Source of the DNA: Utricularia gibba
Lineage: Eukaryota; Streptophyta; Magnoliopsida; Lamiales; Lentibulariaceae
Length of the DNA: 64,000 nt
Reading direction: 5' to 3'
NCBI GenBank assembly: GCA_002189035.1
Contig: NEEC01000002.1
Coordinates: 4,983,001 to 5,047,000 of the forward strand
Shown: one piece after another, positions 47,401 through 53,406 of the stretch
How positions within the stretch are numbered: the first letter of the stretch is position 1
How the letters are laid out: the number at the start of each line of letters is the position of its first letter
The notes under the pieces: generated by a model
Seen by the model: only the letters and a program-made list of their open reading frames with translations
Told to the model about the DNA's origin: nothing
The model's database searches: none
Made by a program: the position numbers and the translations under genes

Positions 47401-47485
47401 AGAAGTTACTTTTTCGAATAACATATGACCACATATGATTATGGCCACTGATCATATAAATAGCGACAAGTAATACATTTATAAT

Positions 47486-47600
47486 GGAAAAATTTGAGAA
47501 TGTGTCACCCAACACTAAGTAATATTAGCCAATGTGCCCTTATACTATCGAAACAAGTGAACTTGCCACTAAACTCATTATTTAGTTGCAAATGTGCCAC
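47486..47600 (+). repeat. Left terminal inverted repeat of the MULE
   Basis: It starts GGAAAAATTTGAGAATGTG and is the inverted counterpart of ~53285-53397. Confidence 0.9.
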
Positions 47601-48296
47601 TCAAGTCTTTTCCTACCTTAATTAATATCCTTCCATATTGTGAGTAACGGTCATGCATGAATACACGCACATAACCAAAAAAATGTGCCACTATATGTTC
47701 AAATGATCGAGTTTTGTGCCACTTATGTTAATAGTTTTTAAAAAGCATGGAAAATGTAGTAGTGCTAACAAATTCGTATCCTTTTCTTAAAAATTTGACC
47801 CGTAACCACAACAAAAATTGATATCTAATTCGTCTAATAATCCGAGCAATTGAAAAAATTTCAAAAACAGATCAGATATGGTTTTCATATTTTAATATCC
47901 AAAAAGACGAGAGGATTCAGAAATTTAAAAGAATTAATTAATCAATTAAAATAGCATTATTTCATCCCTTATTAGTAAAGTATTTTGGAGTATGATATTT
48001 AAATATATATCAATTATTAGTAAAACATGCTTCCTTAAAATCAGAATATTAACCTTAAAAAATAACATAAAAGGGGAAATGAGGCAAAATATCAAAGATG
48101 TATCACCTAGCAAAAGATCAATATCCGTAGTTCTAACCGATTGCGAAACAAAAGTAGAAGGGACATAACATTATCAATGGCCAACTTCATGTGCAACACC
48201 AATATCTTCGACAAATGCCTCCAACTCCTATTTGGTAAACCAAGTAGGAGTCATCTGGTAATGAAACAAAAGTTAGTGACTCATCTAAATATAAAA

Positions 48297-49292
48297 TCAT
48301 TCAATATATGTATGACGTACAAAGTAAGGATATCCCTCTATGTCGAATTGATCCGAAGCACTTTGCACGAACAAGTTTATGTAATAAAGCGCAAACAATC
48401 CGCATTCACTAGCTCCAATTTGAGTGGATACCTGATTTGTAAATGTCAAAAAATCACATTGAGAATTGTAGCAGTAAATCCATACCATTGGTTTGAGTAA
48501 TAGCATCTTCCGGTAGGCATCCTCTGGTTTAGATGGCTTCAACACTGATATAGATTGTTAATGAACCTACAACCACCAGCAAAATGTAATGTTCATGTTC
48601 ATATAACTGCAACTCTAAAAAATTTGCTCAAATCTAAGCTATCACTACCTCCTAATCGTTGACTCATTTAGTGAAATGTTGGACTTCCCCAATGAGTCCA
48701 AAACAATCAAAGAACATTTATTCTTGATACTTGGGTTGCAGAGAATCATCAAATACCAATGACCACTGCACATATGAAGAATGTTGTGATTTTTTAGTAA
48801 CTATGTACCTAAATAAATGGGAAAACTATACAACAGGGATGAAAATGTATTTCTTTCTATTGAACATTTTCATCTTGCGCAGCTTCTTCATAATTGATTC
48901 CACATATTCACCTCGACACCATGCTCCAAAATACAAACACATACAGTTTGCTGCAAGCTTGAGGTATTGATTGTCGAACCTTCCTGTAATATATTTGACA
49001 AAATATGATAATGAAATCCTATTGCAGTAGATCCATCATAAAAAAAAACATTTGGGGTTGAAACTTACTCAAGCAGGTTGGTGAATATCTCATCTTGAAG
49101 TATTCCAAATCTTTCAATACCTATAACATTAGGATACGGTTGGAAATATGTAGCTCTTCTAGTAACTATAGAACTATGGAAAGAAGGGGTTTGTGATGAC
49201 ACAATAATTGGACTGTGTTTTGGAGTATGACAAGTACCAATCTCTTCAGAAGTATGCAGTGAAGATTGACCAACATCTTGTTTGATCTCCAT
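48297..49292 (-). pseudogene. Ulp1-type SUMO/ubiquitin-like cysteine protease carried by the MULE
   Basis: N-terminal frame 49292-49065 starts MEIKQDVGQSSLHTSEEIGT. The catalytic part shows SGHWYLMILCNPSIK (His near 48760), CSLIVLDSLGKSN (Asp), then, after apparent introns, QIGASECGLFALYYINLF (Gln and Cys) with QSASDQFDIEGYPYFV to the end at about 48297. All four residues of the Ulp1 His-Asp-Gln-Cys set are visible. The middle has stops or frame changes that may partly be introns, so intactness is unproven. The layout resembles Kaonashi-type MULEs, which captured Ulp1 genes. Confidence 0.78.
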
Positions 49293-49570
49293 TGTGGTTT
49301 GCTGACCAGTAGACTATGTTTGAGGTGCACTACTACCCTCTTCATTTTCTATAGCATGTGGGATTGAAACATCATATACTTTTGGTTTCCTCCTATTCTT
49401 CTGGGCAAGTGGAGAACTTGTTGATTCTTTGAATGTCACATTCTCTTCTACTACAATTGTATCTCTAAACAAATATTAGATAATAAATTACAACACATTA
49501 TAACAAGAGGATCAGTTGTAATATTAGTTATGTTATTTTAAAAAAATATAATAATAAGATTTTTTAGGAT

Positions 49571-49792
49571 CTACCTAGAAAGTTTTGTTAACTGTTGTGA
49601 TGGAGCATGTGATTTTTCAGGAATTTTGCATCTGCATTTGTTATACCCAATGTCTCTACAATTACTGCACCGCATTATTTTCATCCTCTGTCTTTTTCTT
49701 AACTTAGGAGGTCTACCTCTTCTCTTTCGAAATGGAGTGGCAGCTAAAGGGGGTTTTTCCGCAACTGGCCAATATTTCGAAGAATTAACTGG
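49571..49792 (-). pseudogene. MuDR-type transposase C-terminal zinc knuckle
   Basis: The frame reads SPVNSSKYWPVAEKPPLAAT then RGRPPKLRKRQRMKIMRCSN then CRDIGYNKCRC. The GRPPK stretch followed by CX2CX4HX4C is the usual C-terminus of MuDR transposases. Here the knuckle is CSNCRDIGYNKCRC, with Tyr in place of His. The upstream part is cut by the LTR inserted at 49793. Confidence 0.75.
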
Positions 49793-50300
49793 TGATAGCA
49801 AACAAATTTTCATGTTTTTATAATATGAAAATTATAAGTTTTTAATTATATTTTACTTGTTTATTTTGTATTTTTAAGTATTTTTATATAATTTAGTGAA
49901 TATATGAACTTTGTAGGCAAATGAGCTAAATCCTTTGATTTAGCCCATTTTATGTACTAACGTGCTTTGAATCTAGCATCAACTCCCAAAAATCAGGGGA
50001 GACAACATGATTTTGTGCAAGTATCAGGTTGAAGAAGAAAAGTCAACATAAAAGGAGCAATGAGTACACCGTCGCGGCGGCAGTCTGCATGTCAAGGGTA
50101 GGAGTAGCAGATCTATCAGAGATCGTTCTTGCCTTGAGAAATGAGAGAGGAGAAGATAATTTTGGAGGAGAGAGAATCGCACAGAGGGTGGGGAGTAGCA
50201 GCGACACATAGAGAGTTCCTCCAACACTACGAACACCGATTAGGAGAGGAGAAGAACGAGATTCTCGGGAAGAAGACTCCCATCCTCCAACACTATAAAC
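49793..50300 (+). mobile_element. Truncated LTR of the hairpin family, copy 3
   Basis: It starts TGATAGCAAACAAATTTTC and carries the hairpin ATGAGCTAAATC-CTTT-GATTTAGCCCAT at about 49925-49952, then CAAAAATCAGGGGAGACAACATGAT, in line with copy 1. Similarity ends near 50300, where MuDR sequence begins. The 3' part of the LTR and the adjacent MuDR core have been deleted together. Confidence 0.75.
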
Positions 50301-52219
50301 AAAGTGTCTGACTTTGTAAAAACAATGATTCCTTATGACCTCTCTACATGACTCTTGCTCCTATACTCCATCCCAGCAAACAAGTCAAACTGCCTACTGA
50401 TGCATTGTCTCACAGAGTTATCAATAACTTTTGATTTACTTCCTCTAACATTGTTATTGTTAGTGTATGTGTTCTAGAGATACAATACTTGATAAGCAAA
50501 CAAGTTCTCCAAAACTTGTATCAACAAGTTTAATTGTTGATTTTTTTTGAGTTTAATTGTGATCAAATTTATATCATTGATAAAATACTCTACTTGATAT
50601 ATGTGCTATAGAAATTATGATGAGATCATAATGTGAGATTCTTCAAGCACTCATTATCAAGTTAAAACTCCCTGGTTAGAGTATTTGTGAAATGATTTGT
50701 ATCACAAATACGGATAAGCTGGCATACATTAAGTTCCCTAAACAGTTTGGGCAATGGTTCTCACAATTGATGTAATGAGATTACTAGAACCTATGTGTGG
50801 GTGTCGATTAGAAAATCGATTCACTGGATGACTCATCTTTGAGAGGCTACTATGGGAAGCTAACCAAGTGTCAGTAGCAAAATCTCGAATATGATAGCCG
50901 TGCAAGTAAGCTTAGACTTGAGGTCAACAAAGTTATCTTGATCCTAAGTTCACATTTTCGCTTATTACTAATGGGAGACTAACCATGGCTTGCCTAGTAT
51001 GGATGAATAGGGATGTGAATCCTTAAGGTTGGAGATAGTTGATTGATCAATAAAAGATTCATCACTCATGTTAGCGATGAGATCATATCTCAAGTAATTG
51101 CATCAAAGCCTAACAGTAAGTCCTGGCCCTGGGTAATGACACTCAAATTGTTTGAGTAGGTCATTTTGTGTTAGTGCTTGAATGCAATTATAAGTTCGAT
51201 ACATCAGAAAGACACACACCCATGTTTTGGTATCGAATGAGATATAAGTTTGATGAAAGCTGTTCATTGCATGATAGCTGGTCATGGAAAGACTCAATCA
51301 GTTCACATGATTATTCTTTAATCTTGGGGATCATGATATGTTGCTAGACATCACTCATGATCGATAATGATGAATTTGATTAATTAAGAGTTAATTAATA
51401 AATCTATTATTACGGCCTTGATTGAATAAGCCTATAGGGTCACACACAATAGTGGAGTCGCTCATCGATATAAAATAGAATGACACAATTACATGAGATG
51501 TAATTGGTAAAGTGGATAAATTAAATAGAGAGCTATTTTGAGATTAATATTGATTAAACTCAAAAAAAAAGATCTCATATAGATATGATTTGATATGTCA
51601 CAAAATATCTATCGAAAAAATTTAGATCTTGAGATCTGCTCCAAAGGTCTTCGTGCTCTTTGAGACTGATCCACAAGGAGGCGTTTTTCTCTACTAGCAC
51701 CTAAGAAATTCGACCAGCATTCAAGAGCCTTGAAAAGGTTATCGACGGAGTGCTCCACGTGTGAATACCATAGAGGCCGTCTACTATTGGCGATTGGTGA
51801 ACAACAGAGTCATCTGATAGGTATTTTGAACATACCTTCGTCTAATGTATACCGTATTCCAAGATCTGCGTTTGTGGTTTATCAAAAATTTTAAATTCCG
51901 CTGCTTTTGAGACATACGATGTCACGAGAAACCAACAGTTATTATTCTTTGAACTAGTTGTGTGTGAGGTATGTTTTGATGTGAAATACTCATCATTGAT
52001 GTCCTCTTGTAAGTGAACACATGTATATGTAGTATTCTCATTGGGTATGCCATACTTTGGTTCTCCAACATGAATAAATGCACTTGTAATAAGCACGGCA
52101 GCATATGTGGGGCTGATCTATGATTCATTTTTTTCCTCCACCACAATGTCGTAATCAAAGTCAAATAAACTCCCCTCTTGGGAGTCATCACTGCTAAAAG
52201 AAGTCTCAGTATTGCTCAT
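50301..52219 (-). pseudogene. MuDR-type transposase N-terminal region, split by a solo LTR
   Basis: The minus-strand frame starts MSNTETSFSSDDSQEGSLFD (52219), has a TAG about 34 codons later, then runs ISPTYAAVLITSAFIHVGEP to TSSKNNN. It is cut at 51938 by the solo LTR and, with the LTR and one GTTAT removed, continues in frame as VRGSKSKVIDNSVRQCISRQ, FDLFAGMEYRSKSHVER, stop, GIIVFTKSDTLF. The GMEYRSKSHVE segment resembles the start of the MuDR domain. The catalytic core is missing. Confidence 0.62.
50458..51937 (+). mobile_element. Solo LTR (1480 bp) inside the MULE
   Basis: It starts TGTTAGTGTATGTGTTCTAG and ends GAGAAACCAACA. GTTAT is duplicated at 50453-50457 and 51938-51942. The 3' region has TTTTAAATTCCGCTGCTTTTG, a block often found before the end of plant copia LTRs (class inferred). 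No internal domain or second LTR exists in the window. Confidence 0.9.
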
Positions 52220-53284
52220 TGTTGCTACAATGCATTCATCAAACTATACATCAACAAATCAAAAAAATCCATCTTATCATTTAAAAATACCATGGTGATT
52301 AACAAAAATATCCATCCATAATGAAGTCAGATCAGACTACACTACATGGAATGCATACAGAATTTCTTCCTAATTCAATGGATCTGATAAAATGCTAAAA
52401 ATACAATCAACCATGGTAAAGAACATATTTTTAAAAGAAAAAATGGTAAAGAAAAACCAAGTTATCATGTCATCATAGTGTGAGGAATGAGATCTAATGT
52501 TTGTACCAGATTGATTTTTTAATTCTTGAATAAGAAGCTCTGCAGTTCATTGTTGTTGTCTCAAAAGTATCATTTGCTGCCCCTATTTGATTAATTGCAG
52601 TGTTAGTATGGTGCCTTTTCTAGAAAATAACAAAAGAAACATGTAAAACCTATGCATAGGGGCCGCAATTTTTGCAAAGAAGAAGCTTGGACCGAAACTA
52701 TATCCAATGCAATGCCTACAACATGAACATAAAAGCCTTAACAAATGATTTTCAAAAAATTTCTGAAAAAATGTGTAGACTTCTCCATAAATGACAACAT
52801 TGTCACCAAAACACACAAAATTACTTGTTTTTCAGTTCTATCAGATTGGGAAAAAATGGAACCCAGAAATGAATTCATATTTTTTTTTTTTTTTTGAAGA
52901 AGCTAGCATCCCTGTTCGAGAAGAAATATAACCCAAAAAAATGTCAAAAATGGAAGCTCTAGACTTGTGGAATCCGAAGTAAAGAATGGAAAAACGAACT
53001 TAAAAATTGTCGGGAATCAGAATGATTGATCATTTAAGAATGAGCTAAATTGTAGCACTTAGAGACGTCAATTGACAAAACCCTTTCTCACAAATCTCGC
53101 TAGATGGTCTACTAAGAGAGGAAACTCGATTAGAAGGAGGGGGAATTTCGATTGGAAACAATACGAGACATAAAAATGAGAATGTTAATAAACTAGGGAT
53201 TTTAGCAAGTCTATGAAAAGGGTAAGTTTTCCTCCTTTTCCCTTCACACGTGCCAAAAAAACAAAAATTAAACCAAAAAACACT
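52220..53284. other. MULE 5' non-coding region
   Basis: This lies between the MuDR N-terminal ORF and the right terminal repeat of the element. It is AT rich, with a T run near 52881-52895 and no supported ORF. It is probably the promoter and 5' UTR side of the element. Confidence 0.5.
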
Positions 53285-53397
53285 TACATTTTCAACAAAA
53301 CAATGAATTTAGTGGCAAGTTCACTAATTTTGATAATATAGAGGCACATTGGCTAATATTACTTAATGTTGGGTGGCACATTCTCAAATTTTTCTCC
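53285..53397 (-). repeat. Right terminal inverted repeat of the MULE
   Basis: The reverse complement starts GGAGAAAAATTTGAGAATG. It pairs with 47486-~47600 and is followed by the 9 bp target duplication at 53398-53406. Confidence 0.9.
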
Positions 53398-53406
53398 ATT
53401 TATAAT

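Follow-up and report, generated by a model that had tools for sequence, protein, structure and literature searches.

The window (the whole 64,000-nucleotide stretch of Utricularia gibba DNA analysed here) contains a TIR-bounded MULE at positions 47486-53397, and the minus strand of this element carries a multi-exon Ulp1 (Peptidase_C48) domain along with remnants of a MURA transposase. The features of the element and its borders are as follows.

47477-47485, no strand: left TSD ATTTATAAT, an exact 9-bp match to the right copy
47486-47595, plus strand: left TIR, whose arm 47487-47595 pairs with the right arm
47730-48053, no strand: stretch of ~320 bp missing from the other two copies with the same end, from the copy alignment
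48174-48254, minus strand: Ulp1 exon 7 (last), placed by alignment of copies, with a premature TAG in the window copy
48321-48431, minus strand: Ulp1 exon 6, carrying Gln and Cys in the motif STQIGASECG; its acceptor is in phase 0, like that of host ULP2-type genes
48486-48566, minus strand: Ulp1 exon 5, with a 1-bp deletion in the window copy
48649-48765, minus strand: Ulp1 exon 4, carrying the His in GHW and the Asp in LDS; its acceptor is in phase 2, like that of host ULP2-type genes
48827-48983, minus strand: Ulp1 exon 3; the window copy has an 11-bp deletion in the alignment and has lost the splice donor
49066-49464, minus strand: linker exon 2, from the zinc knuckle to Ulp1, with a TAG stop in the window copy
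49575-49791, minus strand: MURA C-terminal remnant, a basic RRGRPPK stretch and a CCHC-like zinc knuckle, from comparison with sibling copies
49802-50296, no strand: fragment of an unrelated high-copy repeat, in place of the missing ~1.4 kb MURA core (L024:1313-2732)
50302-50458, minus strand: MURA N-terminal remnant, the piece adjoining the DBD_Tnp_Mut domain, from comparison with sibling copies
50456-51933, no strand: solo LTR inside the MURA remnant (TG...CA, 5-bp TSD GTTAT)
51934-52228, minus strand: MURA coding start, MSNTETSFSSDDSQ..., from comparison with sibling copies
52414-52796 (about), minus strand: fragment of another host gene, two exon-like pieces plus intron sequence, ~70% like a gene on contig C480
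53286-53397, minus strand: right TIR, whose arm 53286-53394 pairs with the left arm
53398-53406, no strand: right TSD ATTTATAAT, an exact 9-bp match to the left copy

The TIRs of ~110 bp and the exact 9-bp target duplication reported in the first-pass annotation of this sequence were borne out, as the paired arms are 109 nt long and 89% complementary (BLAST E 4.7e-33) and ATTTATAAT stands on both sides. The element thus has the long TIRs of the Mutator superfamily as well as its TSD, which is exact at 9 bp in the window and measures 9-10 bp at a second locus, C409, described below. The "MuDR ends" of the same annotation were also real, with the N-terminal start of MURA and its C-terminal zinc-knuckle part present and the core gone.

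Two segments between these MURA remnants were considered and rejected as parts of the element. The sequence at 49802-50296 is not transposase sequence; it belongs to an unrelated, diverse and high-copy repeat family with about 71-86% identity between copies. Similarly, 50456-51933 is a 1478-bp solo LTR with its own TSD, and about 40 other copies of it are found in the genome at 91-94%. For the stretch at 47730-48053, a second copy was searched for in the genome and not found; its ends resemble a short inverted repeat (GTTAATA...TATTAAC).

When the Ulp1 exons were scanned singly with Pfam, they yielded weak Peptidase_C48 scores (E 0.021 and 0.21), and they were therefore joined before scoring at their splice sites, which were predicted from the sequence rather than viewed in transcripts. 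The spliced domain of the window copy matched PF02902 with an E of 4.7e-11 and 43.4 bits, the curated Pfam cut-off being 20.7 bits, and matched SENP7 in PDB (3.4e-11) with the catalytic His, Asp, Gln and Cys aligned. The first-pass annotation had proposed a Ulp1-like gene with motifs for these four residues, to be abandoned if the region gave no Peptidase_C48 hit; the hit was obtained, with the refinement that the reading frame is broken. No intact Ulp1 ORF is present in the window copy, which has frameshifting deletions, a lost splice donor and TAG stops. Judged from its frames, the window Ulp1 is a pseudogene of the C48 family that, because its reading frame is broken, would not be able to make a protease despite its four visible catalytic residues.

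We searched the genome (100.09 Mb, 516 contigs) with the left TIR as query and retrieved six TIR-like places. A second TIR-bounded element of 4.45 kb was found at C409:452862-457309 (locus L024), where the TSD is (T)AATTATAAT, 9-10 bp long (L024:361-369). The TSDs ATTTATAAT in the window and AATTATAAT at C409 are the same but for one base, a hint that the family prefers AT-rich targets. Two further loci each retain one TIR, accompanied by the Ulp1 half at C460 (L025) and by the transposase-N half at C2 (L026). The Ulp1 region is hence found in three copies, the other two being 88% identical to that of the window, and parts of the MURA region are found in four. As far as this search can tell, the family is tiny, comprising four loci of which two are TIR-bounded.

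One strand of the C409 copy carries, in order, DBD_Tnp_Mut (PF03108, 3e-8), a partial MULE domain (PF10551, 1.2e-4), SWIM (7.2e-8) and the basic/zinc-knuckle stretch. Of these Mutator MURA domains, PF03108 and SWIM score above their cut-offs and PF10551 below; the window copy retains only the MURA ends. Downstream of the zinc knuckle and on the same strand, the C409 copy continues with introns, the linker exon and the Ulp1 exons. The spliced Ulp1 domains of the C409 and C460 copies matched PF02902 (2e-11 and 2.1e-10, respectively), and the best match of the Ulp1 domain in PDB was SENP7, ahead of SENP1 or yeast Ulp2, with the four catalytic residues aligned. The C409 and C460 copies also carry stops. 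Every copy found is broken, and none could show an intact protein.

The spliced Peptidase_C48 match and a TIR- and TSD-bounded sibling with MURA and Ulp1 together support the first-pass claim of a MULE carrying Ulp1, and the outcome that was to count against it, TIR-bounded copies elsewhere that never include the protease, did not occur. We consider the window element to be, very probably, a degenerate and non-autonomous copy of a TIR-type MULE, the ancestor of which had MURA and, downstream on the same strand, a SUMO-protease domain of ULP2 type encoded by spliced exons. This domain would have been either fused to the C-terminus of MURA through an intron at the MURA stop or encoded by a second gene close by. 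The host-like introns of the protease could also be explained if a MULE, or MULE ends, had by chance inserted into a host SUMO-protease gene, but in three dispersed copies the protease stands at one and the same place with respect to the TIR and MURA, and two of these copies are bounded by TIRs and TSDs. The sibling copies refute this explanation, to which we give practically no weight.

In all three copies, the stop codon of MURA falls on a splice donor (AG/GTAGAT), and the exon that follows is in phase. These reading frames would fit one fused gene as well as two neighbouring ones, the latter because the C409 copy has an in-frame ATG ahead of the linker. A true MURA-Ulp1 fusion, in which selection would have maintained a ULP2-type deSUMOylase tethered to the transposase for shielding the transposase or countering SUMO-dependent silencing, is a tentative idea that we find rather doubtful.

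To place the protease among host genes, we compared two of its introns. The first lies one codon and one base before the HW histidine in phase 2 and the second directly before (V/L)PxQ in phase 0; both are identical in the host genes L041, L043 and L045. An intron ahead of HW is lacking in L040 and L042, the host genes of ULP1 type. A PDB search returned SENP7 as the best match for L045, and L040 was SENP1-like. The PDB ranking and the shared introns, used in place of a full tree, assign the MULE protease to the ULP2 (SENP6/7) class. Because these two intron positions and phases match those of host ULP2-type genes, the protease most likely descends at the DNA level from an intron-bearing ULP2-type host gene; this intron-level evidence points to a ULP2-type (SENP7-like) and not a ULP1-type source. 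Similarity between the MULE exons and host ULP2-type exons is weak (best exon E 0.0024), so the capture would not be recent, and since the three Ulp1-bearing copies have one common structure, it would predate the family's copies. The captured host gene suggested in the first-pass annotation is therefore upheld as an ancient capture but not as a recent one.

A genome-wide PF02902 search found seven other places and missed the exons of the window's MULE family; none of the seven has one of the listed MULE domains nearby, taking a few kb as the limit. A downstream Ulp1 was also sought over about 4 kb in the nearest other MURA families of the genome (about 29-43% identical), and none was found.

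The host-gene fragment at 52414-52796, which was missed in the first-pass annotation, lies in the 5' region of the window element and is mostly absent from the C409 and C2 copies. The C480 gene that it resembles is tandemly duplicated (L063 and L064, C480:650500-667500), and the similarity includes an exon reading GIGYSLDPNFSFAKIAAPYAQ and the flanking introns. The C480 gene has the motif LDPNFSFAKIAAPYAQ, which may resemble the C-terminal part of ABC1-type kinases. A Pfam search on this second captured gene returned no name, leaving the ABC1-type kinase likeness unconfirmed.

For the Ulp1 domain, omega was 0.42 between the window and C409 copies (bootstrap 0.22-0.82), 0.53 between window and C460 (0.28-1.22) and 0.71 between C409 and C460 (0.29-2.52), the last being indistinguishable from 1. 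The MURA N-part gave 1.0 between C409 and C2 (0.58-2.02). These small numbers, in which the window and C409 interval alone excludes 1, suggest past constraint on the protease sequence followed by decay.

The lack of constraint in some copy pairs would also fit a Pack-MULE, in which parts of a host SUMO-protease gene would simply have been taken up by a non-autonomous element and the protease would have no role there. The absent transposase core of the window copy, the host-like introns kept in the protease and the fragment of a different host gene in the same element all agree with such an origin. However, the C409 sibling has MURA and Ulp1 together in the same order and strand, all catalytic exons are present and kept in three copies, the omega of 0.42 between window and C409 lies below 1 over its whole interval, and the recurrence of ULP in MULEs across angiosperms has been published (PMC2528002). 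The window copy lacks the MURA core through decay and does carry part of a different gene, yet MURA is encoded by the family. We regard a Pack-MULE as rather unlikely, though it deserves more weight than the chance insertion discussed above, and prefer the MURA- and protease-bearing ancestor.

The anatomy of the element, the single order and strand of the family's coding parts in the sibling, the conservation of the catalytic site, the host-like intron positions and the decay are direct observations, from which we propose the following course. An intron-bearing host gene of ULP2 type would have been captured at the DNA level well before the copies diverged, bringing the protease into the lineage. 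MURA would have transposed the element by a cut-and-paste route, cutting the target site with a 9-bp stagger, and the protease may have cleaved SUMO, or a modifier like it, from a target of use to the element, e.g. the transposase or a silencing factor; SUMO removal is drawn solely from the enzyme family and from published reports that ULP recurs in plant MULEs. The window copy would have inserted as an element and then lost the MURA core and its reading frames and received the solo LTR.

Kaonashi elements (KI-MULEs) and KIU genes were described in Arabidopsis by Hoen et al. 2006, as reviewed in PMC13317346 and PMC6117577. The first-pass annotation had placed Kaonashi in rice and a few dicots and seen another lineage of it here; the first description was from Arabidopsis, not rice, and membership is not supported. 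The window family and KI-MULEs are alike in being MULEs with a ULP protease domain of ancient capture, and a Ulp1 domain within a MULE that also carries mudrA is what would be expected of a strict Kaonashi (KI/KIU) element. Nevertheless, KI-MULEs are without TIRs, their ULP runs opposite to mudrA (PMC2528002), and there are at least 97 of them, whereas the window family has TIRs of ~110 bp, has its ULP on the same strand as MURA in the C409 copy and occupies four loci. We therefore hold a strict Kaonashi element to be very improbable. The VANC papers were also checked for Ulp1, and nothing relevant was found.

Compared with plant ULP2-class SUMO proteases (SENP6/7-like), the MULE protease is likewise of SENP7 type by its best match and has two introns at the positions and phases found in the host ULP2-type genes; it differs in being only weakly similar to them in sequence, sitting inside a transposon and having broken frames. 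This relic, of which all known copies are broken, is poorly suited to testing why transposons repeatedly keep ULP domains.

The closest known systems are TIR-MULEs with ULP, known from melon and grapevine (PMC2528002; reviewed in PMC13317346). For melon, rice and grapevine, TIR-MULEs carrying ULP1 domains go back to van Leeuwen et al. 2007, as cited in PMC2528002, and, for the Mutavine families, to Benjak et al. 2008 (PMC2528002), some grapevine families having the ULP downstream and oriented as the transposase (PMC2528002). The window family is similar to these in its MuDR-type transposase, long TIRs, 9-bp TSD and downstream ULP, which in the published elements lies in the same or the opposite orientation. 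It differs from them, going by the published descriptions, in being very small, with four loci, two of them TIR-bounded and all broken. The element thus represents a new, very small MULE family of an already published kind, TIR-MULEs with a downstream ULP in either orientation, and makes this a further plant genome where a MuDR-type transposase and a SUMO-protease domain move together.
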